38,384 nucleotides of DNA, taken from Ignavibacteriaceae bacterium. Its GTDB lineage: Bacteria > Bacteroidota > Ignavibacteria > Ignavibacteriales > Ignavibacteriaceae. Below the pieces are notes generated by a model. The model ran no database searches, had not been told where the DNA came from, and worked only from the letters and a program-made list of their open reading frames with translations. The DNA is taken from contig JACZKK010000143.1 of the NCBI GenBank assembly GCA_014860115.1, positions 1 through 38,384 on the forward strand, read 5' to 3'. The position numbers and the translations under genes are program-made. Position 1 is the stretch's first letter. Each line of letters begins with the position of its first letter. Shown here piece by piece: positions 990 to 28,607 of the stretch.

Positions 990-3986
990 ATGGATTACAT
1001 AAAAGAATTTAAAAGTAATCCCGAAGCCGATTGGGTTGAGCACGGTTACGGAACCCGTTTCCAGGGTTTTCAGAACCTTATGCGTCTCCGTGTAACAAAC
1101 ATCCTTCTTGTTTCCAGCCTTTACGATTTATACCTCTTTGAAGAAGACGGCAGATTATATGAACTCATCCGAAATGAATACCAGGGTCTAAACCTCAGCC
1201 ACTCACCTGAATTAACAAGAGTTTCAAGCGGGTATGATGCGATCAATCGTGTAAAAGAAGAAGGTCGCTTTGACTTAATCATCACCACGATGCACATCGA
1301 GGATATGACGGCTCTGAGTTTTGCCAAGCTCGTAAAACAATCCGGACTTGATATACCAATTGTTCTTCTCGCACACGATAACAGAGAGTTAAAATCTCTT
1401 TTAATGAATCCCGAAAGTTCTGTATTCGATAAAGTATTTAACTGGACAGGTGACTTTAGAATAATAATCGGAATAATAAAATATTTAGAAGACAGACTCA
1501 ATGTAGAACACGACAGCAAGATAGTCGGTGTTCAAAACGTAATTGTGATTGAAGATAGTGTAAGATATTATTCTGCATTCCTTCCAATAATCTACACCGA
1601 AATGCTGAAGCAAAGTCAGAGATTAATCTCTGAAGGAATTAATCTGACTCATAAATATTTAAGAATGCGTGCCAGACCAAAAATTCTTCTTTGCACAAAC
1701 TATGAAGAAGCATGGGATTATTTTGACAGATATAAAGAACTGGTTCTGGGAATTATTTCAGACATTGCCTTCCCCAAAAATGGTGAGCTTGATGAGACGG
1801 CAGGAATAAAATTTACAAAAGCAGTTAAAGAAGCAGTAAGTGACATTCCTATCCTGCTAACTTCTAATGATTCATCTAATGAGGAAGATGCGAAGAAAGC
1901 CGGGGCTAATTTTATTCTGAAGGATTCCCCAATCCTTATAACCAGGCTTCAGCATTTTATGAATAACAATTTTGGTTTTGGTGATTTTATTTTCAAAACA
2001 GCAGATGGCGTTGAGGTTGGAAGAGCAAACGATTTGAAGAGTATGGAAGATCAGTTAAAAATTGTCCCGATGGAAAGTATAAAATTTCATGCAGAAAGAA
2101 ATCACTTTTCAAACTGGTTCAAAGCAAGAACTGAATTCTGGCTTGCACACAGGCTAAGACCGAGAAAAGTTTCAGATTATCAAACTGGGGAAGCATTAAG
2201 AGAAGACCTCGTACATTCAATACACAATTATAGAATGTCCCGCCAGCGGGGAATAATAACTGACTTCAATAAAGAAACATTCGATCCTGAAAGCAGCTTT
2301 GCAAGAATTGGCGGCGGTTCTTTGGGTGGCAAAGCGAGGGGCCTTGGATTTGTTAACACACTCATTAATGATTATCAACTTCGCGATCAGTTTGAAGATG
2401 TACTAATTTATGTTCCTCCGGCAATTGTACTTGCAACGAATGTCTTTGATGATTTTCTGGATATGAACAACCTGAGAAGTTTTGCTCTTCATTGCGATAA
2501 CGATGAAGAGATAACTCAAAAATTTCTGGAAGCATCAAAATTCCCGGAGGATATCCTTGGTGAGCTTGCGGCGTTTCTGGATATCATAAGAAATCCGCTT
2601 GCAGTAAGATCATCTAGTTTGTTAGAAGACTCACAGTATCATCCATTCGCCGGTGTTTATCAGACTTACATGATTCCAAATGATAATGCTAATCCACTCA
2701 TACGCCTTAACGATCTTCTCACAACAATTAAAAGAGTTTACGCATCAACTTTCTATCAGAATGCAAAAAATTATATTAAGGTTACATCCTACCGATCTGA
2801 AGAAGAAAAGATGGCGGTGATAATTCAGAAGATGGTAGGAAATAATCATGAGAACAGATTCTATCCTGATTTTTCAGGTGTAGCAAAGTCATATAACTTC
2901 TATCCTCTGCCTCCTCAAAAATCTACTGATGGAATTGTTTCAGCAGCACTAGGTTTGGGTAAGTGGGTTGTTGAAGGAGGAAACACAGTCAGATTTTGTC
3001 CTAAGTATTCCACTGATTTGATTCAGTTTCACTCAGTTAAAGAATCGCTTAACAGCAGTCAGATGGAATTCTTTGCCTTACAGCTTGATGAAAAGACCGA
3101 CTTTGGAAATGTAACTTATGACAAGCTGGTAAAAACATTTCCTCTAAGTGTTGCTGAAAAAGATGGACCATTAAGATTTGTTGGTTCAACTTATCTTCCT
3201 GAAAATGATGCAATTTATGATGGACTGGGAAGAAGCGGTGTCCGATTAGTCACATTCGGACCAATACTAAGAAATAAAATTTTTCCTCTTGCAAACGTTC
3301 TTGAACTATTATTAGAAATGGGTAACTGGGGAATGGGAACTCCCGTTGAAATTGAATTTGCGGTAAACATTTCAAAACCTACCGGTAAAAAGAAAGAATT
3401 TGGGTTGCTTCAAATGAGACCGTTGGTTGTCAGTCACGAATTTGAAGAGCTCAGAATTGATGATATTCCGCAGGAAAAATTAATCTGCCAGAGCAATCAG
3501 GTGCTTGGCAATGGAATTATTCAGGATGTTTATGATGCAGTTGTAGTTGATTATAATTTATTTGACCGTGCTAAAAGCAGAGAAGTTGCAGCAGAAATTT
3601 CATCAATGAACAATAAATTACTTTCAGAAGGAAAACCATACTTGCTTGTTGGAGTGGGAAGATGGGGTTCGTTAGATCCCTGGCTGGGAATACCGGTTAC
3701 CTGGGAACAGATAGCAGGCGCAAGAGCTATTATTGAAACTTCATTTAAGGATATGGCCGTAGAGCCTTCACAGGGTTCACATTTTTTCCAGAATATAACT
3801 TCGTTCATGATTGGATATTTCACAATCAACTCTTCTGCAAGTAATGGATTTATTGATTGGGATTGGCTTTTAGCTCAGGATGCTATCGAGAGTAAAACTT
3901 TTACGAAGCATATCAGGTTTGAAAAACCAATTATAGTTAAAATGAATGGACACGAAAACAAAGGTATTATCATAAAACCTATTTGA
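990..3986 (+). CDS. Receiver-domain / PEP-synthase ATP-grasp-like protein of unknown function
   Basis: 998 residues. Residues ~34-150 look like a degenerate response-regulator receiver, with Thr (about 98) where the phospho-acceptor Asp should be. Residues ~180-330 look like a second receiver with an acidic pair (E188, D189), a candidate phospho-acceptor D258 in ISDIAFPKNG and a later Lys (ILKDSP). From ~440 comes the N-terminal ATP-grasp of PEP synthase / pyruvate phosphate dikinase: GGGSLGGKARGL, then AVRSSSLLEDS (~538) and ending QMRPLVV (~808). The phosphohistidine swivelling domain and PEP/pyruvate barrel expected next are absent. The last ~190 residues instead form an unrecognised domain with LVGVGRWGSLDPWLG and PSQGSHFFQNITSF. 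It is therefore unlikely to make PEP by the usual mechanism. A phosphotransfer or regulatory role is inference. It starts at ATG 990 with no clear Shine-Dalgarno and lies 23 bp before a zinc-ribbon gene. Confidence 0.8.
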   Translation: MDYIKEFKSNPEADWVEHGYGTRFQGFQNLMRLRVTNILLVSSLYDLYLFEEDGRLYELIRNEYQGLNLSHSPELTRVSSGYDAINRVKEEGRFDLIITTMHIEDMTALSFAKLVKQSGLDIPIVLLAHDNRELKSLLMNPESSVFDKVFNWTGDFRIIIGIIKYLEDRLNVEHDSKIVGVQNVIVIEDSVRYYSAFLPIIYTEMLKQSQRLISEGINLTHKYLRMRARPKILLCTNYEEAWDYFDRYKELVLGIISDIAFPKNGELDETAGIKFTKAVKEAVSDIPILLTSNDSSNEEDAKKAGANFILKDSPILITRLQHFMNNNFGFGDFIFKTADGVEVGRANDLKSMEDQLKIVPMESIKFHAERNHFSNWFKARTEFWLAHRLRPRKVSDYQTGEALREDLVHSIHNYRMSRQRGIITDFNKETFDPESSFARIGGGSLGGKARGLGFVNTLINDYQLRDQFEDVLIYVPPAIVLATNVFDDFLDMNNLRSFALHCDNDEEITQKFLEASKFPEDILGELAAFLDIIRNPLAVRSSSLLEDSQYHPFAGVYQTYMIPNDNANPLIRLNDLLTTIKRVYASTFYQNAKNYIKVTSYRSEEEKMAVIIQKMVGNNHENRFYPDFSGVAKSYNFYPLPPQKSTDGIVSAALGLGKWVVEGGNTVRFCPKYSTDLIQFHSVKESLNSSQMEFFALQLDEKTDFGNVTYDKLVKTFPLSVAEKDGPLRFVGSTYLPENDAIYDGLGRSGVRLVTFGPILRNKIFPLANVLELLLEMGNWGMGTPVEIEFAVNISKPTGKKKEFGLLQMRPLVVSHEFEELRIDDIPQEKLICQSNQVLGNGIIQDVYDAVVVDYNLFDRAKSREVAAEISSMNNKLLSEGKPYLLVGVGRWGSLDPWLGIPVTWEQIAGARAIIETSFKDMAVEPSQGSHFFQNITSFMIGYFTINSSASNGFIDWDWLLAQDAIESKTFTKHIRFEKPIIVKMNGHENKGIIIKPI

Positions 3987-4009: not shown

Positions 4010-4216
4010 TTGGCAGAAGAAAATAAAATAACAAGAGAAGAAGTTCCGGATGCCTGTCCACACTGCGGGAATAAACTTTCACCATGGCAGCAGGTTCTTC
4101 TTGCAACTGACAGAGCACTTGTTTGCAAGAATTGCTGGTACAGAATTATCCTGGATGTAATTCCAACAACTAAGAAAACAGATTCAGAAAAATCAAAGAA
4201 TAAAGGTTCAAACTAA
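4010..4216 (+). CDS. Small zinc-ribbon protein (68 aa)
   Basis: Four cysteines in two knuckles, C16-P-H-C19 and C39-K-N-C42, predict a single zinc ribbon of rubredoxin/transcription-factor type. The C-terminus is Lys/Ser-rich and probably disordered. The start is TTG at 4010, chosen because TTGGAG lies at 3998-4003 and no in-frame ATG lies upstream after the previous stop. The gene sits 23 bp after the PEP-synthase-like gene. Its stop codon overlaps the next start (TAATG, 4214-4218), so translation of the downstream glutamate dehydrogenase is probably coupled to it. Function is unknown. A small regulatory or metal-binding partner of the dehydrogenase is possible but inferred only from coupling. 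Confidence 0.75.
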   Translation: MAEENKITREEVPDACPHCGNKLSPWQQVLLATDRALVCKNCWYRIILDVIPTTKKTDSEKSKNKGSN

Positions 4217-5463
4217 TGGAATCCTACAATTCATTTAAAGTAGCACGTCAGCAGGTTTTGGAAGCAGCTAAAATTCTAAACCTTGATGAAGCAACAACAG
4301 AATTTTTAATTACACCTCAACAGGAAGTAAATGTCACTTTGCCGGTTAAAATGGATTCGGGTGTGACAAAAATATTTCAGGCATTCAGAATTCAATACAA
4401 TCATGCCAGAGGTCCGGCGAAAGGAGGAATACGTTTTCATCCTGAGGAAACTGTAGATACAATTCGTGCTCTCGCTTGCTGGATGACATGGAAAACAGCA
4501 GTTGTTGATTTACCACTTGGAGGAAGTAAAGGTGGTATTCGTTGTAATCCTAAAAAATTATCTGAGATGGAACTTGAAAGATTATCGAGGGAATATATTC
4601 GTGCTTTTTCTCCAATGCTTGGAGTAGATATTGATGTTCCTGCAACAGATGTTTACACAAATCCTCAAACTATGGCCTGGATGATGGATGAATATGAAAC
4701 TATAACAAAGAGACATAGCCCTGGTGTATTCACTGACAAACCATTACAGGTCGGTGGAACAGAAGGCAGAAGAGATGCAACAGCCAGAGGAGGAATAATT
4801 TCAGTTCGCGAAGCTTGCAAAACATATGGATTTGATCCAAGTAAAGAATTTGCAATTCAAGGTTTCGGTGATGCAGGACAAAGAGCAGCACTGCTGCATA
4901 AAGAAATGTTGGGTGGAGGAAAACTTATATCTGCAAGTGATTCTCGGGGCGCAATATTCAACAAGAAGGGATTAGATCCGGAAGAGTTGGTTCATCACAA
5001 ACTAAAAACCGGATCAGTTATGAACTTCCCCGGCAGCAAAGAAATTCCACACGAAGAATTGCTGGAGCTTGATGTTGAGATTCTATACCCCGCAGCGTTG
5101 GAAAATGCTATCAACAATAAAAATGCAAAGAGCATTAAAGCAAGAGTAGTGTGCGAACTTGCTAATGGTCCAACAACTCCTGATGCAGATTTAATTCTTT
5201 TCAAAAACAATGTTCACGTAATTCCTGATATACTCGCAAGTGCGGGTGGAGTAACAGTTTCATACTTTGAAATGGTTCAGGACAAATCTTTATTCTTTTG
5301 GGAAGAAGAAGAAGTTCATAAACAGCTCGATAAAAAACTAACGCTTGCCTACAAGCGAGTTCAGGAAGCATTGAAAGAAAAGAAAGTTCATCCACGTTTG
5401 GCTGCTATGCTTGTTGGTGTGGCTCGTGTTGCACAGGCCTGTCAGCTAAGAGGTTGGGTGTAA
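4216..5463 (+). CDS. Glu/Leu/Phe/Val-type glutamate dehydrogenase
   Basis: 415 residues, the usual length for the archaeal/clostridial-type hexameric glutamate dehydrogenase, interconverting glutamate and 2-oxoglutarate plus ammonia. Conserved signatures are the substrate site HARGPAKGGIRFHP, the catalytic Lys segment LPLGGSKGGI, DVPATDVYTNPQTMAWMMDEY, and the Rossmann motif AIQGFGDAGQ followed by ISASDSRG. Family members more often have FGNVGQ, so the Asp-Ala variant at the dinucleotide site is notable. ANGPTTPDAD and DILASAGGVTVSYFEMVQ complete the family pattern. It differs clearly from the GdhA-type enzyme at 1-795 and is probably the NAD- or dual-specific, possibly catabolic enzyme. Coenzyme use cannot be read with certainty. 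ATG 4216 overlaps the stop of the zinc-ribbon gene. Confidence 0.93.
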   Translation: MESYNSFKVARQQVLEAAKILNLDEATTEFLITPQQEVNVTLPVKMDSGVTKIFQAFRIQYNHARGPAKGGIRFHPEETVDTIRALACWMTWKTAVVDLPLGGSKGGIRCNPKKLSEMELERLSREYIRAFSPMLGVDIDVPATDVYTNPQTMAWMMDEYETITKRHSPGVFTDKPLQVGGTEGRRDATARGGIISVREACKTYGFDPSKEFAIQGFGDAGQRAALLHKEMLGGGKLISASDSRGAIFNKKGLDPEELVHHKLKTGSVMNFPGSKEIPHEELLELDVEILYPAALENAINNKNAKSIKARVVCELANGPTTPDADLILFKNNVHVIPDILASAGGVTVSYFEMVQDKSLFFWEEEEVHKQLDKKLTLAYKRVQEALKEKKVHPRLAAMLVGVARVAQACQLRGWV

Positions 5464-5756
5464 AAACAGTAAGCTCTTGCTGTTTAAATTTGATCGTTAT
5501 ATCGACCTCAATAAAAAATTTAACTTAATACTTTCCATTCAGCAATAGTTTATTTGCTAATTATTCAGTAAAAATATTCAGTTCCTGCTTCAGAAATAAC
5601 ATTTTTCATCGTTAAAAATTTATCAACAAAGAATATTTCTTAACATTTTCTATTTACAAATTTTTTTTACGAAGTTTGGGTGTAACAAATTCGGTTTTTT
5701 CTGATGAATACTTCTTACGCCAATCGAATCTTCTCACAACTCTTTGGGGCAAAATT
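5464..5756 (+). other. AT-rich gap upstream of the NuoE-like operon
   Basis: No gene is supported here. The stretch is very AT-rich, with three scattered ATTCAG words and a weak AGCAA...TTGCT inverted repeat near 5540. It probably holds the promoter of the four-gene redox operon, but no promoter could be assigned with confidence. An in-frame TTG at 5676 would extend the NuoE protein by 27 unconserved residues and is rejected in favour of ATG 5757. Confidence 0.4.
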
Positions 5757-6605
5757 ATGACCACTCTGACAACTACACCGGAAAAGGAAAAAATAAAAGC
5801 CCGTGAAGGAATTATTTCTATCCTTGAAGATATACAAGCAAGGTACGGTTATCTTCCTCAAAAAGAACTAAGAAATGTTGCTGAAGAAACAGGTAAATCT
5901 CTTGTTGATATTTACGGAGTTGCAACTTTCTACAGATCTTTCAGTTTGAAACCTCGCGGCAAACATTTAGTTTCAGTTTGTCTTGGGACTGCGTGTCACG
6001 TTCGCGGTGGGCCAACGATTGAAAAGGAGTTTGAGCACCGGCTGAATGTCCGACCTGGTGAAACAACTGATGACAAAGAATTCACCCTTGAAACTGTAGC
6101 CTGCCTCGGTGCCTGTGCATTAGGACCGATAGTAGTTGCAGACGGGCACTATTTCTCCAAAGTCATCACACCAAAAGTAAAACAAATCTTAGATAAAACA
6201 CGCGAGGGATTAGACAAAGTAGAAATTCAAACTGATCAAAGAATTTTTCCTGTTGAAATCAGTTGTGCACGATGCAACCACAGCCTGATGGATACTGATC
6301 ATTTGGTTGATTACCATCCTTCAATACGGGTTACCATTTCATTCGAGAGAAAACACGGCTGGTTACGATTATCCAGCTTATATGGCAGCTACAACATAGA
6401 ATCAGAATATGAAATTCCGGAAGATACAGTTGTAAACTTTTTTTGTCCTCACTGCCACACCGAATTAAGAGGTGCAGCAAATTGTGTTGAGTGCAGTTCT
6501 CCGATGATACCGATGATTGTTAAAGGCGGCGGGGTTATGCAGATATGTTCAAAAAGAGGCTGTAAAGGACATATGCTTGATCTTTCAGGAGGTATTTATG
6601 GTTAA
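5757..6605 (+). CDS. NuoE/HydC-like [2Fe-2S] subunit with Cys-rich C-terminal extension
   Basis: Thioredoxin-fold [2Fe-2S] subunit that pairs with the NuoF-like protein in NADH-linked oxidoreductases. ATG 5757 is chosen because GGGG lies seven bases upstream and the upstream TTG extension is unlike the family. It gives 282 residues. Helical N-terminal residues 1-60 contain YGYLPQKELRNVAEETG and IYGVATFYRSF. The cluster ligands are C75 and C80 (CLGTAC), then C116 and C120 (CLGAC). Classical NuoE ends near residue 160. Here about 120 more residues follow with CARC, CPHCH, CVECS and CSKRGC pairs, suggesting one or two zinc ribbons or an additional metal site. It is first in a tight operon with the NuoF-GltD, NuoG-like and glutamate-synthase-like genes. 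Confidence 0.9.
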   Translation: MTTLTTTPEKEKIKAREGIISILEDIQARYGYLPQKELRNVAEETGKSLVDIYGVATFYRSFSLKPRGKHLVSVCLGTACHVRGGPTIEKEFEHRLNVRPGETTDDKEFTLETVACLGACALGPIVVADGHYFSKVITPKVKQILDKTREGLDKVEIQTDQRIFPVEISCARCNHSLMDTDHLVDYHPSIRVTISFERKHGWLRLSSLYGSYNIESEYEIPEDTVVNFFCPHCHTELRGAANCVECSSPMIPMIVKGGGVMQICSKRGCKGHMLDLSGGIYG

Positions 6606-6647
6606 TAATCGTTCAACTAATTCTGAATTTATCTTGGGGGTTTGGTT

Positions 6648-9600
6648 ATGCCAACAATAAAATCTATTAATGAATTTAGAGAACTTAAAAGCAGAATTAA
6701 AGCCGACCGTGATTCCAGCATTCCAACAATTGTAATATCTGCAGGAACGTGCGGACAGGCAAGCGGTGCTAACGATCTAATCCGAATAGCAAAGCGTGAA
6801 TTAATTGCGAACGGTTTGACGAATAGAATTCATCTTCGCATTACCGGATGTCATGGCTTTTGTGAAATGGAACCTTCAGTGCTTATTGAACCCTCCCGTG
6901 TTTTTTACCCGAAGGTAACAACAGAAAATATGAGTAAGATCATCAAATCAATTTACAGGGAGGAAATTTTAGATGATCTTCTCTTTCACGATGCGGAAAC
7001 CGGTAAACCGATTTTAAGGCAGGATGATATTCCTTTTTACAAAAAGCAAAAAAGAACTCTGCTTTCGATGAATGAAAAGATTGATCCAATTCGTCTGTTC
7101 GACTATTTGGAAGCAGGAGGTTATGATTCATTTATAAAAGTTCTTGAAGCGGCGAATCCAAACTGGGTTGTCCAGGAAGTAAAACATTCAGGCTTGCGAG
7201 GACGTGGCGGTGGCGGTTTTGCAACCGGAACCAAATGGGAAATGTTAGCAACACAAAGGAACGGAAGAGAAAAATATTTAGTCTGTAATGCTGATGAAGG
7301 AGATCCTGGTGCCTACATGGATCGAAGCTTGCTTGAAGGTAATCCGCACAGCATTATCGAGGGAATGTTAATCGGTGCTTTTGCAACAGGTGCTACAAAC
7401 GGAATTGTGTATGTTCGAAATGAATACCCTCTAGCAATTAAACATTTAATTATTGCATTAAGAGTTGCCCACGAATATGGATTACTCGGAAATAATATTC
7501 TTGGAACCGGTTTCTCTTTTGATATTACTATTGTAAGAGGTGCAGGTGCTTTTGTTTGTGGTGAGGAGACCGCACTAATCAGATCAGTTGAAGGTAAAAT
7601 GGGTGAACCGCGTCAGCGTCCACCTTTCCCGATTGAAAAAGGTATATATGGAAAACCGACCGCAATCAATAACGTTGAGACATGGGCAAATGTACCCTTG
7701 ATTTTGAAACTTGGGTCAAAAGAATATTCAAAAATTGGGACTCCTAAAAATTCTGGAACAAAAATTTTTAGTTTGGTTGGAAAAGTTAAGAACACGGGCT
7801 TGGTAGAAGTACCGATGGGTATTTCTATCAAGGAAATTATTTTTGATATCGGTGGAGGCGCATCAAGTAGTGCAAAAATAAAAGCTGTTCAGACCGGTGG
7901 ACCATCAGGCGGATGTATTCCTGTCGAAAAATTTAATCTGCCAATCGATTACGATAGTCTTTCTGCTGCCGGTTCTATTATGGGTTCAGGTGGAATGATT
8001 GTTATGGATGAAAGAACCTGCATGGTTGATGTTGCAAAATACTTTACTCGTTTCTTAAAAGATGAATCGTGCGGAAAGTGTTTTGTTTGCAGAAAAGGAA
8101 CCCAGCGAATGTATGAACTGCTTGAAGACATTTCAATGGGACTTGGCACTTTAGAAAAATTAGATTTGCTAGAGGAACTTGCCCACGTGGTTAAGGATAC
8201 ATCGATGTGCGGTTTGGGACAGACAGCAGCTAACCCGGTTTTATCAACTATAAAATATTACAGGCACGAGTATCTTGAGCATATCAACAATAAAAAATGC
8301 CGTGCTGGAGTTTGCAGAGATCTTGTTGGAGCTCCTTGTCAGACAGCTTGCCCGATTGGTACTGAAGCATGGAGATACATCGCTCACATAGCTGTTGGTG
8401 AATATGAGAAAGCCTACACTGCAATACGGGAAGCAAATCCATTTCCATCTGTTTGTGCAAGAGTATGCAGCCATCCATGCGAATATATGTGCAGGTCAGG
8501 GACGAGCGGAGGACAAGCAATTGCAATACGTGCGCTCAAACGATTTATTACAGATCGGATTGAGCCTTCAACATATAAACCTGTCAGAGATAAGGACAGT
8601 AAAAAATCAAAATTCAAAGTTGCAATCGTTGGTTCAGGTCCTGCCGGATTAACTGCCGCACATTACTTATCACTCAAAGGTTATAAAATTACTGTTTACG
8701 AAAAAGATGAAATACCTGGCGGAATGTTAACAAGTGGAATTCCATCATACAGGCTTCCGAGAGAAGTTATCAATAAAGAAATAGATGCACTGATTGATAA
8801 AAATATTACTCTCAAAACCAATTCTGTTCTTGGCAGAGATTTCGCTGTCGATGAATTATTTGAGCAGGGATACAATGCCGTATTTCTTGCAATGGGCGCA
8901 CACAAAAGTAAATTGCTGAATATTGAAGGTGAAGATCTTGATGGTGTTTATCCTGCAATTGAATTTCTGAAAGAGTTCAACTTGCACGGAAAGAATCTTG
9001 CTAAGGGACGTGTTGGCGTAATAGGTGGTGGTGATTCAGCGATTGATGCTGCTCGTGTTTCACTCAGACAGAAAGATGTCAAAAGTGTTACGCTTCTGTA
9101 TAGACGAACACGCCAGGAAATGCCGGCACTTCAGCATGAAATCGATGCTGCAATCGAAGAAGGTGTCAAGCTTGTAACATTGGTATCGCCAATAAAAATT
9201 CATTCTGAACATAATCATCTCTCAGGAGTTGAGTTCATTAAGAATAAACTTGGCGATGTAGATTCAAGCGGAAGAAGAAACCCTGTCCCAATTCCGGGTT
9301 CGGAAGAATTTATGTTTTTTGATACTTTGATTATTACAATTGGCGACACACCAGATGTTGATTATATCTCCTCGATGAAAATTGATGTAAGCAAGTGGGG
9401 CACTTTAATAGTCGATGAAGATACACTTGAGACAAACCGCGAGGGTGTTTTTGCCGGAGGTGATGTTGTCACAGGTCCAAACACAGTTGTTGATGCAATC
9501 GCTGCAGGAAAGAAAGCGGCGATAATGATTGACAGGTATTTAATGCAGGAAGAATTAAGACAGCCGCCTGAAATACGTTTACCGAAAATATACGTACCAC

Positions 9601-9821
9601 CCGTTGAAATTTCGGAAGAGGAGACGAAGAGAGTCTCACTTCCGACTATTCCGGTAGAAGAGCGAAAGTCCAGCCTGCACGAAGTGGAGCTGACTCTTTC
9701 TGCTGAACAGGCGAAGTATGAAGCACACCGGTGTATGAGGTGTGATCTTGAATTTATCCATGAGCAAAAAGATGGTAAGAAATTAGAACTCATCGAAAGC
9801 GAGGATATCTACCATGGTTAA
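6648..9821 (+). CDS. NuoF/HydB-GltD fusion flavoprotein, candidate bifurcating subunit
   Basis: 1057 residues from ATG 6648, preceded by GGGGG seven bases upstream (the TTG at 6642 is less likely). In order: an N-terminal thioredoxin-like [2Fe-2S] domain (SAGTCGQ, CHGFC); a NuoF core with FMN/NADH motifs GLRGRGGGGFATG (~182), CNADEGDPGAYM (~212) and GAGAFVCGEETAL (~298); and a [4Fe-4S] site ESCGKCFVCRKG (~473) with MCGLGQ (~520). At CRAGVC, where HydB proteins continue into a two-cluster ferredoxin, the chain switches to a GltD/NfnB-like module. That module has a Cys-rich N-terminus (CQTACPIG, CSHPCEYMC), an FAD site VAIVGSGPAGL (~658), an NADPH-type site GGGDSAIDAAR (~790) and FAGGDVVTGP (~934). 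It thus has NADH/FMN and FAD/NADPH centres on one chain, consistent with flavin-based electron bifurcation (Bfu/Nfn-like). That role is inferred. It overlaps the next gene by 8 bp. Confidence 0.92.
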   Translation: MPTIKSINEFRELKSRIKADRDSSIPTIVISAGTCGQASGANDLIRIAKRELIANGLTNRIHLRITGCHGFCEMEPSVLIEPSRVFYPKVTTENMSKIIKSIYREEILDDLLFHDAETGKPILRQDDIPFYKKQKRTLLSMNEKIDPIRLFDYLEAGGYDSFIKVLEAANPNWVVQEVKHSGLRGRGGGGFATGTKWEMLATQRNGREKYLVCNADEGDPGAYMDRSLLEGNPHSIIEGMLIGAFATGATNGIVYVRNEYPLAIKHLIIALRVAHEYGLLGNNILGTGFSFDITIVRGAGAFVCGEETALIRSVEGKMGEPRQRPPFPIEKGIYGKPTAINNVETWANVPLILKLGSKEYSKIGTPKNSGTKIFSLVGKVKNTGLVEVPMGISIKEIIFDIGGGASSSAKIKAVQTGGPSGGCIPVEKFNLPIDYDSLSAAGSIMGSGGMIVMDERTCMVDVAKYFTRFLKDESCGKCFVCRKGTQRMYELLEDISMGLGTLEKLDLLEELAHVVKDTSMCGLGQTAANPVLSTIKYYRHEYLEHINNKKCRAGVCRDLVGAPCQTACPIGTEAWRYIAHIAVGEYEKAYTAIREANPFPSVCARVCSHPCEYMCRSGTSGGQAIAIRALKRFITDRIEPSTYKPVRDKDSKKSKFKVAIVGSGPAGLTAAHYLSLKGYKITVYEKDEIPGGMLTSGIPSYRLPREVINKEIDALIDKNITLKTNSVLGRDFAVDELFEQGYNAVFLAMGAHKSKLLNIEGEDLDGVYPAIEFLKEFNLHGKNLAKGRVGVIGGGDSAIDAARVSLRQKDVKSVTLLYRRTRQEMPALQHEIDAAIEEGVKLVTLVSPIKIHSEHNHLSGVEFIKNKLGDVDSSGRRNPVPIPGSEEFMFFDTLIITIGDTPDVDYISSMKIDVSKWGTLIVDEDTLETNREGVFAGGDVVTGPNTVVDAIAAGKKAAIMIDRYLMQEELRQPPEIRLPKIYVPPVEISEEETKRVSLPTIPVEERKSSLHEVELTLSAEQAKYEAHRCMRCDLEFIHEQKDGKKLELIESEDIYHG

Positions 9822-10491
9822 TCTTAAATTGAACGGATTAATAGTATCAGTAGAAGAAGGAACAACTATCCTTGAAGCAGCGCAGTTTATGGGATTCCCG
9901 ATTCCAACTTTGTGTCATATGGAAGGACTTTCGCCATATGGTGCCTGTCGGCTTTGTGTTGTTGAAGTTGGTGAAGGAGTAAAAGCAAAGCTTGTTACAT
10001 CCTGCACATCTCTAGTTCAGGAAGGAATGAATGTCAGAACTGCTTCCAACCGTGTTGTAACAGCACGAAAGATGATAGTTGAACTTCTATTGGCTACTTG
10101 TCCTCAATCAAAAATTATTCAGGATATTGCTTCCGAGCTTGGTGTACGACAACAGAGATTCAGACAAGAGCACGAGGATTGCATTATGTGTGGTCTCTGT
10201 GTAAGAATGTGTGAAGAGCAGATGATGGCAAAGGCAATTGGTTTCCGTGGTCGCGGCGATCATCGCAGCATCGGAACACCATTCGACATCAAATCAGAAG
10301 TGTGCCGTTTATGTGGCGCTTGTATGTATGTTTGTCCTGCCTGTCAGTTAAGGTGCACTTACACTGAACCGGATAAAGCAATCTGTGGTGGATGCATGAA
10401 CCTGACACCACCTTGCTTAGAAAAAGAAAAATTTGATAATATGATGTGTTACATGGATCCCTGTGTAGCATGCGAAATTAAAATTAAATAG
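9814..10491 (+). CDS. NuoG/HydA N-terminal-like iron-sulfur subunit, no catalytic domain
   Basis: 225 residues forming only the electron-transfer part of NuoG/HydA. The N-terminal plant-type [2Fe-2S] domain has ligands C34, C45, C48 and probably C64. The His-Cys cluster segment of NuoG is degenerate (LLLATCPQSK). Two ferredoxin-type [4Fe-4S] motifs follow: CIMCGLCVRMC and CRLCGACMYVC. A further tail is rich in cysteine (CQLRC, CGGC, then CYMDPCVAC) and may hold another cluster or dock the next subunit. No molybdopterin or H-cluster domain is present, so the catalytic role must lie in another subunit, most simply the adjacent glutamate-synthase-like protein. ATG 9814 overlaps the end of the NuoF-GltD gene. 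Confidence 0.9.
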   Translation: MVNLKLNGLIVSVEEGTTILEAAQFMGFPIPTLCHMEGLSPYGACRLCVVEVGEGVKAKLVTSCTSLVQEGMNVRTASNRVVTARKMIVELLLATCPQSKIIQDIASELGVRQQRFRQEHEDCIMCGLCVRMCEEQMMAKAIGFRGRGDHRSIGTPFDIKSEVCRLCGACMYVCPACQLRCTYTEPDKAICGGCMNLTPPCLEKEKFDNMMCYMDPCVACEIKIK

Positions 10492-10504: not shown

Positions 10505-12088
10505 ATGTTGTACTCAAGAGTAAATTCATCAGCAGCAACACTTACCAAAAACAGAACAGAAGGTTCAATTACACCTTCATCCGGAATGTGTGTTACCTGT
10601 GTTGATGGCTGTATAGGAATGTGCGAGATCGGAAAATCTGCATACCGCGGACACGAGGTAATTTATCCTCAACCTTTTGGTGTAATAACGACTGCATCAG
10701 AAAAAATTTATCCCGTTGATTATTCTCACTTCAACATTATGGGAACTGCAGTCGGTGCTTACGGTATTGAAGCCGATAGTGACAAAGCCATCTTTCCAAA
10801 TGTCAGGATTGATGTTACATTCGGTCACGATAAAGGAATACACTTTAAGTATCCGTGGATCATTCCCGGAATCGGATCAACTAACATTGCGAAAAACAAC
10901 TGGGAAGGATTGGCAATCGGTTCAGCACTTGCCGGGACCGGATTAACAATCGGCGAAAATGTGACCGGTATGGATGTGGAATCTATTATAAACAGAGGAA
11001 AAGTATTTGATACAGTTGATTTGAAACGAAGAGTAAAACTTTACAAAGATCATCAGCGAAATGGATACGGCGCAATAGTAGTGCAGGCGAATGTTGAAGA
11101 TACACGTCTTGGAGTTCAGGAATATGCAATTGATAAACTTGGAGTTGAAGTTGTTGAACTTAAATGGGGACAGGGTGCAAAAGATATTGGCGGCGAAGTT
11201 AAGATAAGAGAATTGAAAAAAGCTCAGATGCTCTATGAACGTGGATATGTAGTTCTTCCAAATCCAACAGATCCTCATGTTATTCAGGCATTCGAAAGAG
11301 GTGCCTTTAAGGAATTCGAACGTCACTCAAGACTTGGCATGGTTAGCGAAGAAGGATTTGCCCAAAGAGTTGATGAACTTAGAAAAGCAGGGGCAAAGTA
11401 TATTTTCTTGAAAACAGGTGCATATCGCCCTGCTGATCTTGCACGAGCAGTTAAATTTGCTTCAAAGTATAAAATTGATTTGCTAACTGTCGATGGAGCC
11501 GGCGGTGGAACGGGAATGAGCCCGTGGAGAATGATGAACGAGTGGGGCGTTCCTCCGGTTGAACTTCATTCAATGCTTTATCAATACACAAAACAGCTTC
11601 ACGATAAAGGCGAATATGTTCCCGCGCTTGCTGTTGCCGGCGGATTTACATTCGAGGATCAGATATTCAAAGGACTCGCACTCGGTGCACCTTTTGTAAA
11701 ACTTGTTGGTATGGCACGTTCGCCAATTGCCGCTGCAATGGTTGGAAAGACTATCGGTCGTGCAGTTCAGGAAGGACAGCTTCCTGTTTATGTTGAGAGA
11801 TTTGGAAACAGTATCGATGAGATATTTGTTACAGCAAGCGAGTTAAGAAAAGAGCTCGGTAATTCTGAATTTGAAGCATTACCTCCGGGAGCGATTGGAC
11901 TCTATACTTATTATGAAAGATTAGGCCAAGGATTGAAACAGTTAATGAATGGCAGCAGAAAATTTGCTCCTGAGTTTATTACTCGAGATGATATTGCCGC
12001 GCTAACTCACGAAGCTGCAGAGATAAGCGGAATCAAATACATCACAGAAGTCGATAAAGAAGAAGCTCAGGTAATTTTGAACGGATAG
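10505..12088 (+). CDS. FMN-binding glutamate-synthase-family subunit
   Basis: 527 residues with the FMN-binding (beta/alpha)8 domain of the glutamate synthase large subunit, recognisable by KWGQGAKDIGGEVKIREL and DGAGGGTGMSP, which correspond to GQGAKPGEGG and GHDGGTGASP in GltB. The N-terminal glutaminase (GATase type 2) domain is absent. The CHLNTCPVG [3Fe-4S] motif of classical GltB is also missing: the region after FVKLVGMARSP has no cysteines. Instead an N-terminal C29-x2-C32-x3-C36-x3-C40 motif may carry a cluster. It is the last gene of the NuoE/NuoF-GltD/NuoG operon, with a strong GAGGAG ribosome site 8 bp upstream of ATG. It is proposed as the third catalytic site of the complex, but whether it makes glutamate is unproven. 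Confidence 0.9.
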   Translation: MLYSRVNSSAATLTKNRTEGSITPSSGMCVTCVDGCIGMCEIGKSAYRGHEVIYPQPFGVITTASEKIYPVDYSHFNIMGTAVGAYGIEADSDKAIFPNVRIDVTFGHDKGIHFKYPWIIPGIGSTNIAKNNWEGLAIGSALAGTGLTIGENVTGMDVESIINRGKVFDTVDLKRRVKLYKDHQRNGYGAIVVQANVEDTRLGVQEYAIDKLGVEVVELKWGQGAKDIGGEVKIRELKKAQMLYERGYVVLPNPTDPHVIQAFERGAFKEFERHSRLGMVSEEGFAQRVDELRKAGAKYIFLKTGAYRPADLARAVKFASKYKIDLLTVDGAGGGTGMSPWRMMNEWGVPPVELHSMLYQYTKQLHDKGEYVPALAVAGGFTFEDQIFKGLALGAPFVKLVGMARSPIAAAMVGKTIGRAVQEGQLPVYVERFGNSIDEIFVTASELRKELGNSEFEALPPGAIGLYTYYERLGQGLKQLMNGSRKFAPEFITRDDIAALTHEAAEISGIKYITEVDKEEAQVILNG

Positions 12089-24795: not shown

Positions 24796-25644
24796 CTAAA
24801 ATCCTAAAAAATAAATTATTATACCCAAAATTAATCCGAATGCAAGATTAAAGACTTTGATTAAAACAGAATCCTTTAATGAATAGGAAAGCATGGGCAG
24901 CATTCCGTGTCCATCCTGCACAACTGAACTTGTTAACAAAACAGAAAAAGGAATGAGTCCTTTTGCAAAGAGCATCACAAAAATCAGATGCGGACCCGAT
25001 TCGGGAATTAATCCAATCAACGCTCCAAGTACTAACAGAAGAAAAGTATATTCTGAAGTTATGCTTTCAAGATCAAAAAAAGTCATTGCATACTCAACAA
25101 CAAGAAGAGCACCGAAAGTCCACAGAAAAATTCTGATAAGGTGTCCTTTAATAATGTGAGTCCAGATATGATCTTCAAAATAATGTTTGTAACCCTCTTC
25201 ACCGGGATGGTATTGCTTGAATTCACAATCAGTGCATGTTTTTATTTTATATTTTTTAATGATAAAATCTGTCAGATAACCAGCAGCAATTCCAATCACA
25301 AAAAGAATTGCAAAAAGGATGATTGCTGTATCTGGAATCATTGCTAGCATAACAAATGCTTCATCACCGGAAGTTGCAAGCATTAAACCAGTAAGTGCAC
25401 CAAGACTTATCATTCCATGAATATAAAGTGAAACACCGGCAAAAGAACCAAGACAACCGGGTGCTGAACCCAGTATTGATGATACAATATATTGTTTCCA
25501 TTCATTTCCGGTTTGAAGAATTGATTCCAGTTTCCCTTTTGTTTTAACATTTATAAAATCTACAGCAACCATCATCACCAAAACGAAAAGTGTGACTTTA
25601 AGTGATTCCATTAAAACAGAGACAAGGATTCCTAAGGCAGGCAT
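24796..25644 (-). CDS. ArsP_2-like metal/metalloid permease
   Basis: 282 residues with about eight to ten hydrophobic helices. The N-terminal half begins PALGILVSVLMESLKVTLFV and contains SILGSAPGCLGSFAGVSLY. A central hydrophilic loop has CTDCEFKQYHPGEEGYKHYFEDHIW, rich in Cys and His. The C-terminal half contains LGALIGLIPESGPHLIFVMLFAKGL and SSVVQDGHGMLPMLSY. This pattern matches families annotated as ArsP_2 or putative manganese transporter, so metal or metalloid movement is likely, though the ion and direction are unknown. It lies between the NifX-like gene (53 bp) and the TonB receptor. Confidence 0.8.
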   Translation of the reverse strand: MPALGILVSVLMESLKVTLFVLVMMVAVDFINVKTKGKLESILQTGNEWKQYIVSSILGSAPGCLGSFAGVSLYIHGMISLGALTGLMLATSGDEAFVMLAMIPDTAIILFAILFVIGIAAGYLTDFIIKKYKIKTCTDCEFKQYHPGEEGYKHYFEDHIWTHIIKGHLIRIFLWTFGALLVVEYAMTFFDLESITSEYTFLLLVLGALIGLIPESGPHLIFVMLFAKGLIPFSVLLTSSVVQDGHGMLPMLSYSLKDSVLIKVFNLAFGLILGIIIYFLGF

Positions 25645-25697
25645 TATTATTTATCCAGTTAGCAAATGTATTTATAAATTCCAGTGGTTCGAATTAT

Positions 25698-26030
25698 CTA
25701 ATTTTTCTTTCTCTGCTTTTTAAAATATTTACTTAATGCAGATTTAACTGTTTCTCCTGATTTAATAAGTTCAATTTTTATATGCTCTTTCAGTAAAAGC
25801 GAATATGATTTACGGCCTATCTCCTTCGTCAATAAAACATCAGCATTATTTTCTAATAAGGTCTTCGAAGCTTCCAGACCAGAACCATCCTGAACTTGGA
25901 AGCCGGGGTTTTCAACAGATTCATAACTTCCGTCGGAACTATCATAAAAGATCAAAAATGGTGCTCGTCCCAAGGTGTCACTAACCGGTGAAGTCAGATT
26001 TTCACTTGTTGATGGTATTACTATTTTCAT
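25698..26030 (-). CDS. NifX/NifB-like (dinitrogenase Fe-Mo cofactor family) protein
   Basis: 110 residues of the Nif X/Y/B C-terminal fold: VIPSTSENLTSPVSDTLGRAPFLIFYD, then NPGFQVQDGSGLEASKTLLENNADVLLTKEIG. In nitrogenase organisms this domain carries Fe-Mo precursor, but no nif genes are present and stand-alone members occur widely with metal-handling clusters. It has no cysteine. The C-terminus is Lys-rich (YFKKQRKKN). It sits 26 bp after the radical SAM gene and 53 bp before the permease. Confidence 0.85.
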   Translation of the reverse strand: MKIVIPSTSENLTSPVSDTLGRAPFLIFYDSSDGSYESVENPGFQVQDGSGLEASKTLLENNADVLLTKEIGRKSYSLLLKEHIKIELIKSGETVKSALSKYFKKQRKKN

Positions 26031-26056
26031 CTTATCAACTCATACTTTTTAATTGC

Positions 26057-27010
26057 TTAAACATCAATTTTATTTTTAATATTTTTTACTAGGAATTTAT
26101 ATCCAGAATACTCTACTTCTTTCAAAATATTTTTATGAATCAAAGATTCGATTAAACTCCAGCTTTCATTTGCTTTGCGTAAAAAAGTATCAACGGCTTC
26201 CAGGCTCATCGGATGTACCGCTAGAATACTTACCAGTTCTTTCTCGACATCAGAAGAATAAGTAAAGTCTATTTCTCCGCTGCCGGTCAAAAGCTCAACT
26301 CTGTTTATTTCTGTATTAAATATTTGATATGCCATGTTCAGATTTTCTTCCGATGGAGTTTTTACGAATCCTTCGGCAGGAGGACGAGTAGGAACAAGTA
26401 TGTAAGTTTTATCAGGATTAATTTCTTTGATAAACTTGCTTGTATTGACTAAGGACTCTTTGTCATCGTTAATTCCATTTACCAGCATTGTTTCTGTTAC
26501 AAAGGTTCCTCTGAAAGAATGTCTGAAATTTTTAATACCGTTTAATATTTTAAGCACATCCAGTTTGCCGTAAGGTCGGTTTATTTTATGCCAGATTTTT
26601 TCATCAAGTGTATCAATCTTTACTGAAACCCAGTCAGCCAGCAGTAAATCTTCTCTCACTTCTTTATCCCAGAGTAGTGATGAATTTGTTATAACGGCAA
26701 TATTAATTCCAAGCGGTTTTAGCAATTGAATTTCTTTGCCAAGATTTATATCAAGAGTCGGTTCTCCATCCGGGACAAAACTTATGTAATCAATCTTTTC
26801 ACCTGAATTTTTTAGTTGACTTACTCTTTCGGAAACTTCCGCAACTATTTCTTCGAGAGGATAAAATTCTTTTCTTTGAATTGACAAAAAGTCAGTAAGT
26901 CCAACCTGACAGTACACGCACGAATAGCTGCAGATCTTTGGAGGAATGTTATTTACTCCAAGACTTCTTCCTAACCTGCGTGACGGAATGGGACCAAACA
27001 CGATAGACAT
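26057..27010 (-). CDS. Radical SAM protein
   Basis: 317 residues. The N-terminus FGPIPSRRLGRSLGVN is the hallmark of a widespread unassigned radical SAM subfamily. C27-x3-C31-x2-C34 (ICSYSCVYC) binds the [4Fe-4S] cluster that cleaves S-adenosylmethionine. Further motifs are FVPDGEPTLD (the GEP/GGEP SAM-binding segment), VITNSSLLW and SVKIDTLDEKIWHKINRP. The C-terminal ~80 residues look like a winged-helix domain. The reaction is unknown. Neighbours suggest it serves the metal or cofactor process of this cluster. It is 30 bp from the cupin gene and 26 bp from the NifX-like gene. Confidence 0.87.
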   Translation of the reverse strand: MSIVFGPIPSRRLGRSLGVNNIPPKICSYSCVYCQVGLTDFLSIQRKEFYPLEEIVAEVSERVSQLKNSGEKIDYISFVPDGEPTLDINLGKEIQLLKPLGINIAVITNSSLLWDKEVREDLLLADWVSVKIDTLDEKIWHKINRPYGKLDVLKILNGIKNFRHSFRGTFVTETMLVNGINDDKESLVNTSKFIKEINPDKTYILVPTRPPAEGFVKTPSEENLNMAYQIFNTEINRVELLTGSGEIDFTYSSDVEKELVSILAVHPMSLEAVDTFLRKANESWSLIESLIHKNILKEVEYSGYKFLVKNIKNKIDV

Positions 27011-27040
27011 AATTTTATTTCTTTGTGATTCTCTACTTAA

Positions 27041-27358
27041 TTATTGTATGGTATTCCAGAACACAATAATTACAGCACCGGATTTTGACGCAAACGGACC
27101 ATGATCTTTATGTGCGGGAATGTATCTATAAGTTCCCGATTGGAATACTTTACCCTCACTTTCGTATTCGCCCTCTAAAACCACATGTTGTTCATTGTAT
27201 ATATGAGTATGTGAATCCATGTGAAAACCTGCGGGCAATTTTAGAAGAATCGTTTTTGAACCATTATGATCCAGTAGGGCTTTGATTCTTGTACCAACCG
27301 GATAACCGGTAGCTTTTTCCCAGCCTAATTCATCATAGATATTTGTAACGTGTTTCAT
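27041..27358 (-). CDS. Cupin-domain protein
   Basis: 105 residues from ATG 27358, chosen because GAGGT lies just upstream and because it then avoids overlapping the CGGC gene. The cupin motif appears as GFHMDSHTHIYNEQHVVLEGE and later YIPAHKDHGPFASKSG, giving three or four histidines and a Glu as likely metal ligands. The barrel is short and probably dimeric. Such proteins serve as metal sensors or small dioxygenase-like enzymes, and the function here is unknown. It lies 19 bp after the CGGC gene in the metal cluster. Confidence 0.82.
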   Translation of the reverse strand: MKHVTNIYDELGWEKATGYPVGTRIKALLDHNGSKTILLKLPAGFHMDSHTHIYNEQHVVLEGEYESEGKVFQSGTYRYIPAHKDHGPFASKSGAVIIVFWNTIQ

Positions 27359-27377
27359 ATTTACCTCAGATTTAATT

Positions 27378-27824
27378 TTAATTGTAAGCCAATCGTATTT
27401 CTTCATCAGCTAATATTGGTTTGATGAGTTCCTTCCATTCCAGTGTATTCCAGGTATTCAATGCAGTATGAGTAATTAAATATTTCTCCGGTATCGGATG
27501 AGAGCCAACTATTACTTTCAACCCAAATTTTGTTTCTATAAATTTTTTGAAATAATTAATACTTGGGCAAGGCGGATAACCCACTAACATTCCCGTCGCA
27601 AAGTGAATTACTTCAGCTCCGTTCTTTTTCATTTCTTCCGGAGCGTATTCAATGTTTCCTCCGGGACAACCACCGCAGCTTGTATATCCAACTACTTCAA
27701 TTTCTTTGTCTTCATAAATATCAAATGCTCCGGCTCTTTCCTTAATTGCTCTGAAGCATTTACCACCTGCACAGTCTTTGTATCTGTCGCAGATTATGAT
27801 TCCTATCTTAACTAGATTTTCCAT
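27378..27824 (-). CDS. CGGC-domain metal-binding protein
   Basis: 148 residues. Cysteines occur in CDRYKDCAGGKC near the N-terminus, then SCGGCPGG and YPPCPSINYF, the pattern of the CGGC domain (a putative metal-binding domain). C-terminal VIVGSHPIPEKYL is also typical. The exact role is unknown, and a metal carrier or sensor is inferred. It lies between the His-rich NifX-like gene (39 bp) and the cupin. Confidence 0.83.
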   Translation of the reverse strand: MENLVKIGIIICDRYKDCAGGKCFRAIKERAGAFDIYEDKEIEVVGYTSCGGCPGGNIEYAPEEMKKNGAEVIHFATGMLVGYPPCPSINYFKKFIETKFGLKVIVGSHPIPEKYLITHTALNTWNTLEWKELIKPILADEEIRLAYN

Positions 27825-27863
27825 TACTTCCTTCTTTCTTTTAGTAAACAGATGAAAGTTTTT

Positions 27864-28283
27864 TTAATGATCACTATGATCGCAGACTAAATCAGTTTCA
27901 TTTTTAAGTTCACCCTTTATGAATTGATTTACAGCATCGTCAATCATTTCGATATCAGTAAAGAGAGTTGAAATATTGTGCTGCTTTAAATCCTCTACAA
28001 CTCGCCAGCCTCCTCCACTTGATATTAAATACTTACAATCCTTTAATCCTTCAATCAGGTGAGTGTGTCTGTGTTCACCGCCTTCTCCATGATGCTGATG
28101 ATGCTCTCCGCCTCTTCTGTGGTTTGTGAAAGAATTCTCTCGCAATTCTTTATTAACGATTTTCTCTCCATCAATTTCATAAACCATAAAAGTTCTGCAC
28201 CTACCGATGTGTCCTGTAACTCTATGCTGGTCGTTTGTTGCAATTGCTATTTTTCCTTTGAATGTGTTTGTCGGGTTGTTCAT
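27864..28283 (-). CDS. NifX-like protein with His-rich insert
   Basis: 139 residues of the dinitrogenase Fe-Mo cofactor (NifX/NifB) fold: GKIAIATNDQHRVTGHIGRCRTFMVYEI, ISSGGGWRVVEDLKQHNI and ALFTDIEMIDDAV-like ending. Between the strands (~60-80) lies a His-rich loop, RRGGEHHQHHGEGGEHRHTH, and the C-terminus ends CDHSDH, both likely metal-binding. It is the second NifX-like protein of the cluster, and unlike the one at 25698 it is strongly His-rich. It lies 42 bp after the DUF134 gene. Confidence 0.85.
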   Translation of the reverse strand: MNNPTNTFKGKIAIATNDQHRVTGHIGRCRTFMVYEIDGEKIVNKELRENSFTNHRRGGEHHQHHGEGGEHRHTHLIEGLKDCKYLISSGGGWRVVEDLKQHNISTLFTDIEMIDDAVNQFIKGELKNETDLVCDHSDH

Positions 28284-28325
28284 TGTTTATCTCCATATTT
28301 TAGTAGAAATTTTTTAAATATTTTA

Positions 28326-28607
28326 TTAATGGTTATCATTTATCCTGATAGCCTTTCCGTTTAAGATTCCGTCAGTAACTTTTTTCCGTGCAGCTTCCAC
28401 AATCCGTCCGAAAGTAGCCCTGGAAATTTTCATTTCCTTTGCTGCTTTTTCGTGAGAATAGGCAAGAAGGTCAGCAAGCCTCAATGATTCCAGTTCATCA
28501 TGATCGAGAACTATTTCCTGTAATTCATTCATTGGAATTCCTCGAGGTTTAAAATAATATGCTGATGGATTGCAGCAGATTCTTCTATGTTTTCTTGGTC
28601 TTGGCAT
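28326..28607 (-). CDS. DUF134 helix-turn-helix protein, candidate regulator of the metal cluster
   Basis: 93 residues, full family length. MPRPRKHRRICCNPSAYYFKPRGIP is the family's conserved N-terminus (given here as read in two parts: MPRPRKHRRICCNP and YYFKPRGIP), followed by LDHDELESLRLADL and a sigma-region-4-like helix-turn-helix, SHEKAAKEMKISRATFGRIV. The family is found beside NifX-like genes in many anaerobes and is generally thought to be DNA-binding. It is the first gene of the cluster. A perfect palindrome lies 20 bp upstream. Confidence 0.88.
   Translation of the reverse strand: MPRPRKHRRICCNPSAYYFKPRGIPMNELQEIVLDHDELESLRLADLLAYSHEKAAKEMKISRATFGRIVEAARKKVTDGILNGKAIRINDNH

Follow-up and report, generated by a model that had tools for sequence, protein, structure and literature searches.

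A GltS-like FMN-barrel protein encoded with BfuCBA-type subunits, a candidate third-substrate module found in many bacterial phyla

A 38,384-nucleotide stretch of an Ignavibacteriaceae genome (GenBank assembly GCA_014860115.1, contig JACZKK010000143.1; this whole stretch, as analysed, is referred to as the window) encodes a protein that carries the FMN-barrel motifs of glutamate synthase (GltS, GltB) without the parts by which that enzyme obtains ammonia and electrons. What does such a barrel reduce, and what reduces it? An original prediction, made from the letters of the sequence, held that the protein would need free ammonia or another amine, perhaps from neighboring glutamate dehydrogenases (GDH), or would act on a different substrate. 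The features of the protein on which the question turns are the following:

10505..12088, + strand: GltS-like FMN-barrel subunit, 527 aa from an ATG start; proposed third-substrate (catalytic) subunit
10589..10624, + strand: C29-X2-C32-X3-C36-X3-C40; predicted [4Fe-4S] ligands, from cysteine conservation
11162..11182, + strand: K220-WGQGAK-226; equivalent of GltS KxAQGAK, invariant and aligned to GltS by profile-profile comparison
11501..11524, + strand: GGGTGMSP (G333-P340); equivalent of GltS DGGTGASP
11714..11761, + strand: ARSPIAAAMVGKTIGR (A404-R419); in the place of the GltS [3Fe-4S] loop, free of cysteine

The barrel and its cysteines

The GltS-like protein is related to the GltS FMN barrel, distantly but genuinely. 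Its Pfam Glu_synthase match, above cut-off (E = 8.6e-16), covers residues 279-400 only, no NCBIfam model matches it, and neither single-sequence nor profile searches of the PDB matched it to a GltS structure; profile-profile and fold comparisons were needed to make the link. Aligned as a family with the GltS FMN domain, it matches over most of the barrel (hhalign, 98.2%, E = 5.5e-14), and a second profile-profile comparison agrees (97.6%, E = 4.8e-12). An early AlphaFold model built from 30 sequences was too poor to use (pLDDT 64), and one built from 80 sequences reached a pLDDT of 77.8 and a pTM of 0.81, with residues 1-67, which include the cysteine motif, at a pLDDT of about 30 and unplaced relative to FMN. 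The best 50 Foldseek matches to this model include FMN alpha-hydroxyacid oxidases and the GltS structures 1ofd and 1ea0; VIA gave a Z of about 26 over about 300 residues, with GltS chains absent from its best 50 matches. By profile, fold, and partial Pfam match, an FMN (beta/alpha)8 synthase domain of the GltB type is present, and the shared fold makes FMN-type chemistry likely while leaving the substrate unindicated. Other Glu_synthase matches in the same genome were set aside as GMP-reductase/IMPDH-like and IDI2-like proteins, and the viral contigs scanned yielded none.

The predicted barrel motifs are borne out: KxxQGAK, GE, and GGTGxSP are invariant in the family, and K220, Q223, K226, and E151 are kept, the first three lying in the counterpart of GltS KxAQGAK, which we take to be the FMN/2-oxoglutarate site. 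The GltS sequence GGQ has become GGE231, with an invariant E231 at the position of the Gln in GltS GGQLPG, and the GltS PPPHHDIYS loop has no recognizable counterpart in the profile-profile alignment; both points indicate a substrate pocket that differs from that of GltS. In the same alignment, the residues after FVKLVGMARSP fall on the GltS [3Fe-4S] loop (QCHSNTCPVG / ACHLDTCPVG) and contain no cysteine, just as the original prediction had claimed.

The loop's ligands have not moved elsewhere in the chain, as the protein has only four cysteines (C29, C32, C36, and C40), all N-terminal, in the pattern CX2CX3CX3C. Among 80 homologues, which share 81% pairwise identity on average and at least 74%, C29, C36, and C40 are present in 80/80 and C32 in 79/80, with a single Ser; distant relatives (39-62% identity) also keep all four cysteines together with GEN, GQGAK, GGE, and GGGTGMSPW, and the four-cysteine motif is retained in the relative at locus L117 (47% identity). 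The conservation of the N-terminal cysteines is far above chance. Thus, the prediction stands on both points that could have overturned it, the possible relocation of the [3Fe-4S] cysteines and the possible lack of conservation at the N terminus. The homologue set spans more than 10 phyla, and the carriers include Planctomycetota, Zixiibacteriota, Bacteroidota, Acidobacteriota, Calditrichota, Ignavibacteriota, and Coatesiibacteriota, among others. One copy, on a metagenome chromosome, has an in-frame TAG (L020:9234-9236) near the codon of the invariant K415, likely a single substitution in the metagenome assembly that reflects either an assembly error or a broken copy.

The class II glutaminase (GATase_2) that the protein was said to lack is indeed absent from it by Pfam and has no match anywhere in its 99%-complete genome; at cut-off, 38 of the 44 other carriers likewise have none. 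An MgsC-type protein (N-methylglutamate synthase, encoded beside MgsA and MgsB) was also considered as a candidate identity, but no curated NCBIfam model supports it and the genome offers no GATase_2.

The operon and its input subunits

A point missed by the original prediction is that the gene closes a conserved operon, ordered BfuC(NuoE)-BfuB(NuoF)-BfuA(HoxU-like)-GltS-like; the relevant comparison is therefore with the HydABC/Bfu family of electron-bifurcating enzymes. The spacings in the window are 36, -7, and 13 bp, and the four-gene order is kept in every locus with a long enough contig. An apparent HoxU-GltS fusion (in L076) was dismissed as apparent only, being due to an open frame upstream. 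The other members of the operon are as follows:

5676..6605, + strand: BfuC, NuoE-like [2Fe-2S] subunit (Pfam 2Fe-2S_thioredx PF01257, E = 9e-44)
6264..6563, + strand: C-terminal 8-Cys zinc-ribbon-like extension of BfuC
6642..9821, + strand: BfuB, 1059 aa; N-terminal thioredoxin-like part, NuoF FMN/NADH part, and N3-type [4Fe-4S] part, fused to a GltD-type domain
8298..9749, + strand: GltD-type Fer4_20 (DPD_II) + FAD/NADPH domain of BfuB, replacing the HydB bis-[4Fe-4S] ferredoxin end
9814..10491, + strand: BfuA-like (HoxU/NuoG N-terminal-like) iron-sulfur subunit, 225 aa (Pfam Fer2_4 + Fer4_7)
10342..10473, + strand: C-terminal 8-Cys extension of the BfuA-like subunit (C177-C220)

The coding start of BfuC is probably the ATG at 5757. 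Its four [2Fe-2S]-subunit cysteines occur in 61-62 of 62 homologues, and all eight cysteines of its C-terminal extension occur in 62/62; at a deep-branching Bfu locus (L129), BfuC is 167 aa long, with no room for the 8-Cys tail. Just upstream of BfuC at L025:2702-3043, and in 20 other loci, is a small ORF (about 114 aa) that is rich in Cys, has no Pfam match, and contains two similar repeats with Cys residues. BfuB residues 30-562 align to 7t2r_B/HydB/StnB (E = 6.4e-195), with the cysteines of the NuoF/N3-type part conserved; of the N-terminal [2Fe-2S] ligands (B5), C70 and C74 are found in 68/72 and C37 in 42/72. The best solved relatives of the BfuA-like subunit are 9mqx_A, HydA 8a6t_A, and StnC 8oh5_C. 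It has 21 nearly invariant cysteines, eight of them in the C-terminal extension, where each is present in 74-75 of 76 homologues.

It is the far end of BfuB that varies. In the window, BfuB has Fer4_20 + FAD where the ferredoxin-reducing B3/B4 bis-[4Fe-4S] end would be, and 50 of the 69 loci that could be classified are of this type (Fer4_20 + FAD/NADPH); the other 19 (L001, L010, and L021 among them) finish with the HydB-type bis-[4Fe-4S] (ferredoxin) domain, and these short variants match HydB, NiFe-Bfu B, and StnB of solved structure along their entire length. The two types are intermixed on the GltS-like tree, with at least 12 changes between them, although many inner branches of this tree are poorly supported. 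A GltS-like protein that changes little while the BfuB end switches is what one would predict for a catalytic module whose input can be exchanged.

Each known system that we compared shares part of this arrangement. With Bfu/HydABC (PMC9304861), the operon shares BfuC, the BfuB NADH/FMN core, and a BfuA-like subunit feeding a third-substrate module, as well as, in the short variants, the full HydB-type bis-[4Fe-4S] end; it differs in that the third-substrate module is a GltS-type FMN barrel, unnamed in that survey, and in that a GltD-type NADPH domain replaces the ferredoxin end in the window. The same replacement of B3/B4 by DPD_II + FAD/NAD(P) occurs in the BfuB of Hydrogenedentota sub-type I [FeFe] BfuABC, where it is accepted as Bfu (PMC11406978), but the catalytic unit there is an [FeFe]-hydrogenase rather than a GltS-like barrel. 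StnABC, the Nfn-Bfu transhydrogenase (PMC10482914), likewise joins a GltD-type NADPH/FAD domain to a NuoE/NuoF bifurcating core, but places that domain in StnC (BfuA) rather than in BfuB and has no FMN barrel. GltB/GltD (1EA0, 1OFD, 6S6X) share the barrel, with KxxQGAK, GE, and GGTGxSP, and a GltD-type NADPH partner domain, whereas the protein described here has neither glutaminase nor [3Fe-4S] loop, has the N-terminal CX2CX3CX3C instead, and is proposed to receive its electrons via BfuCBA. No description of a GltS-like Bfu subunit was found in the main texts of the open-licence literature; the combination of Bfu with a GltS-like protein, spread over many bacterial phyla, appears to be undescribed.

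Neighboring genes and sister clades

In the window, a glutamate dehydrogenase gene lies directly upstream of the operon:

4216..5463, + strand: glutamate dehydrogenase, 212 bp from the operon

GDH recurs as a neighbor in 9 loci. Across 76 loci, a GDH gene lies no more than 500 bp from the operon in 8 cases, where the GDH density of the carrier genomes would predict 0.03 (the loci are not fully independent), and these GDH-adjacent loci differ in phylum and arrangement. The adjacency on which the original prediction drew is, therefore, above chance, but its suggestion that the GDH neighbors supply ammonia would be circular because the GDH reaction is the same interconversion; more likely explanations are a 2-oxoglutarate/glutamate pool held in common or alternative electron carriers. 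Given that GDH is present in 43 of 45 carrier genomes, another route to glutamate exists in these organisms. Glutaminase-type glutamate synthase (GOGAT) is found in 6/45 carriers versus 173/247 genomes of the window's phylum, in 1 of 8 further members sampled from the window's family, and, in the phylum to which genome G250 belongs, in 1/10 versus 64/186 (p = 0.17). We considered and rejected the idea that the complex replaces GOGAT, the rarity of which is largely common to non-carriers in the family and phylum and is mostly a matter of lifestyle.

Histidine kinase/NtrC-type sigma-54 regulator genes form one neighbor cluster, present in as many as 39 loci and lying upstream in most of these; the window and many other loci have none. 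A sigma-54 promoter upstream of BfuC, found in 2 of 55 regions and not in the window, was discarded as a candidate. A 998-aa REC-like + PPDK_N protein (990-3986, + strand) is a recurrent neighbor of the operon (11 loci, up to 62% identity). Elsewhere in the window, two Nitro_FeMo-Co proteins are clustered with radical SAM, cupin, CGGC, and DUF134 proteins (24796-28607, - strand), adjoined by an ArsP_2-type putative heavy-metal exporter (24796-25644).

In the rooted tree, all Bfu-linked barrels group together in a single clade (100/99). A second (HDO) clade, at L118, L120, L121, L123, L125, and L127, has one to three haem-oxygenase-like (Haem_oxygenas_2) genes before the GltS-like gene, and most of its loci have a histidine kinase and an NtrC-type regulator further upstream; RidA lies 3' of the GltS-like gene in L123, L125, and L127, and a GDH-like gene of 918-920 aa is also present in L123 and L125, its L125 version bearing an Asp/Glu-racemase-like domain. 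The third clade, from genomes of the phylum Planctomycetota (L122, L124, L126, L128, L130-L132, L134, and L135), consists of a GltS-like paralogue (about 61% identity) that stands alone and is divergent from genes read from their sequence as MoxR/DUF58/VWA-like; three of its genomes carry the haem-oxygenase-linked form too. Both sister clades keep the cysteine motif without BfuCBA, which makes the Bfu-linked barrels one branch of a broader family that is itself undescribed.

Proposed electron path and competing explanations

Our preferred reading, to which we give about even weight, is of an undescribed Bfu variant in which the GltS-like protein serves as the third-substrate (catalytic) subunit and which reduces an oxo or imino acid, most likely 2-oxoglutarate with NH3. 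Gene content and order, the exchange of BfuB modules, cysteine conservation, and barrel homology are observed; we infer that the four proteins form one physical complex and that it confurcates electrons. Electrons would pass between NADH and BfuC with the NADH/FMN core of BfuB, and between NADPH and the GltD-type FAD domain fused to BfuB in the window; in relatives with the bis-[4Fe-4S] BfuB end, ferredoxin would take the place of NADPH. The clusters of the BfuA-like subunit, including those of its 8-Cys extension, may then relay electrons to a putative [4Fe-4S] cluster at C29/C32/C36/C40, which would take the role of the lost [3Fe-4S] cluster and reduce the barrel FMN. The FMN in turn would reduce the oxo or imino acid, most likely converting 2-oxoglutarate and free ammonia to glutamate without glutamine or glutaminase. 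Glutamate as the product is the least certain element: it is suggested by the retention of KxxQGAK and GE, by GDH adjacency, and by RidA adjacency in the sister clade. Because NADH suffices energetically to reduce 2-oxoglutarate, bifurcation is not required on thermodynamic grounds, which, like the altered pocket, counts against 2-oxoglutarate as the substrate. Also against the preferred reading are the other glutamate route that GDH gives nearly all carriers, the missing B3/B4 end of the window's BfuB and the uneven retention of its C37, and the sister clades without BfuCBA. Doubtful, in our estimation, is the claim that the complex is a glutaminase-free glutamate synthase of the Bfu-type confurcating kind, with NADH plus NADPH or reduced ferredoxin replacing ATP and glutamine.

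Less probable is a complex with the same electron path and a different substrate (another amino, imino, or oxo acid), the barrel then being a diverged GltS-family reductase or dehydrogenase. The altered pocket (E231 for Gln, and the PPPHHDIYS region) points this way, as do the three sister-clade loci in which RidA, of an imine deaminase family, adjoins the gene, and the several GDH genes that the organism already has; the invariance of KxxQGAK, GE, and GGTGxSP counts against it, as does the rank of GDH as the metabolic gene most often found beside the operon in the Bfu clade. We think it unlikely that the GltS-like enzyme is separate from BfuCBA, with BfuCBA acting as an NADH/NADPH(ferredoxin) transhydrogenase type and the barrel served by another donor. 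Sister-clade barrels that keep the cysteine motif without BfuCBA would be consistent with such independence, but the four-gene order is invariant over many phyla, no other third-substrate module is encoded, the 8-Cys extension of BfuA is invariant, and the Bfu-linked barrels are monophyletic.

Two further explanations fare worse. That the barrel is a redox or nitrogen sensor whose signal goes to a histidine kinase and an NtrC-type regulator, both encoded upstream, would accord with the many loci that have such genes, those of the HDO clade included; it is nonetheless very unlikely, given the loci (the window among them) from which the regulators are missing, a pattern of barrel conservation that looks catalytic, and three redox input subunits, which would be unusual for a sensor. 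Split GltS domains are known from archaea (PMC8097209), but an ordinary split glutamate synthase with its glutaminase encoded elsewhere is extremely improbable here, in view of the lack of GATase_2 in this genome and in most other carriers, the missing [3Fe-4S] motif, and the unmatched NCBIfam models.

The Bfu family is noted for the variety of its third substrates, which range from CO to H2O2 in the 2022 survey (Schut et al. 2022, PMC9304861); that survey lists no module for amino or oxo acids, and its main text does not contain the word "glutamate." A gene read as plain "glutamate synthase" from its Pfam match would lead to wrong metabolic reconstructions. If the barrel does make glutamate, nitrogen assimilation would be joined directly to electron bifurcation and ATP-costly glutamine would no longer be needed, and the complex would represent a further kind of ammonia-assimilating (or ammonia-releasing) enzyme, present in many phyla of mostly uncultured bacteria.
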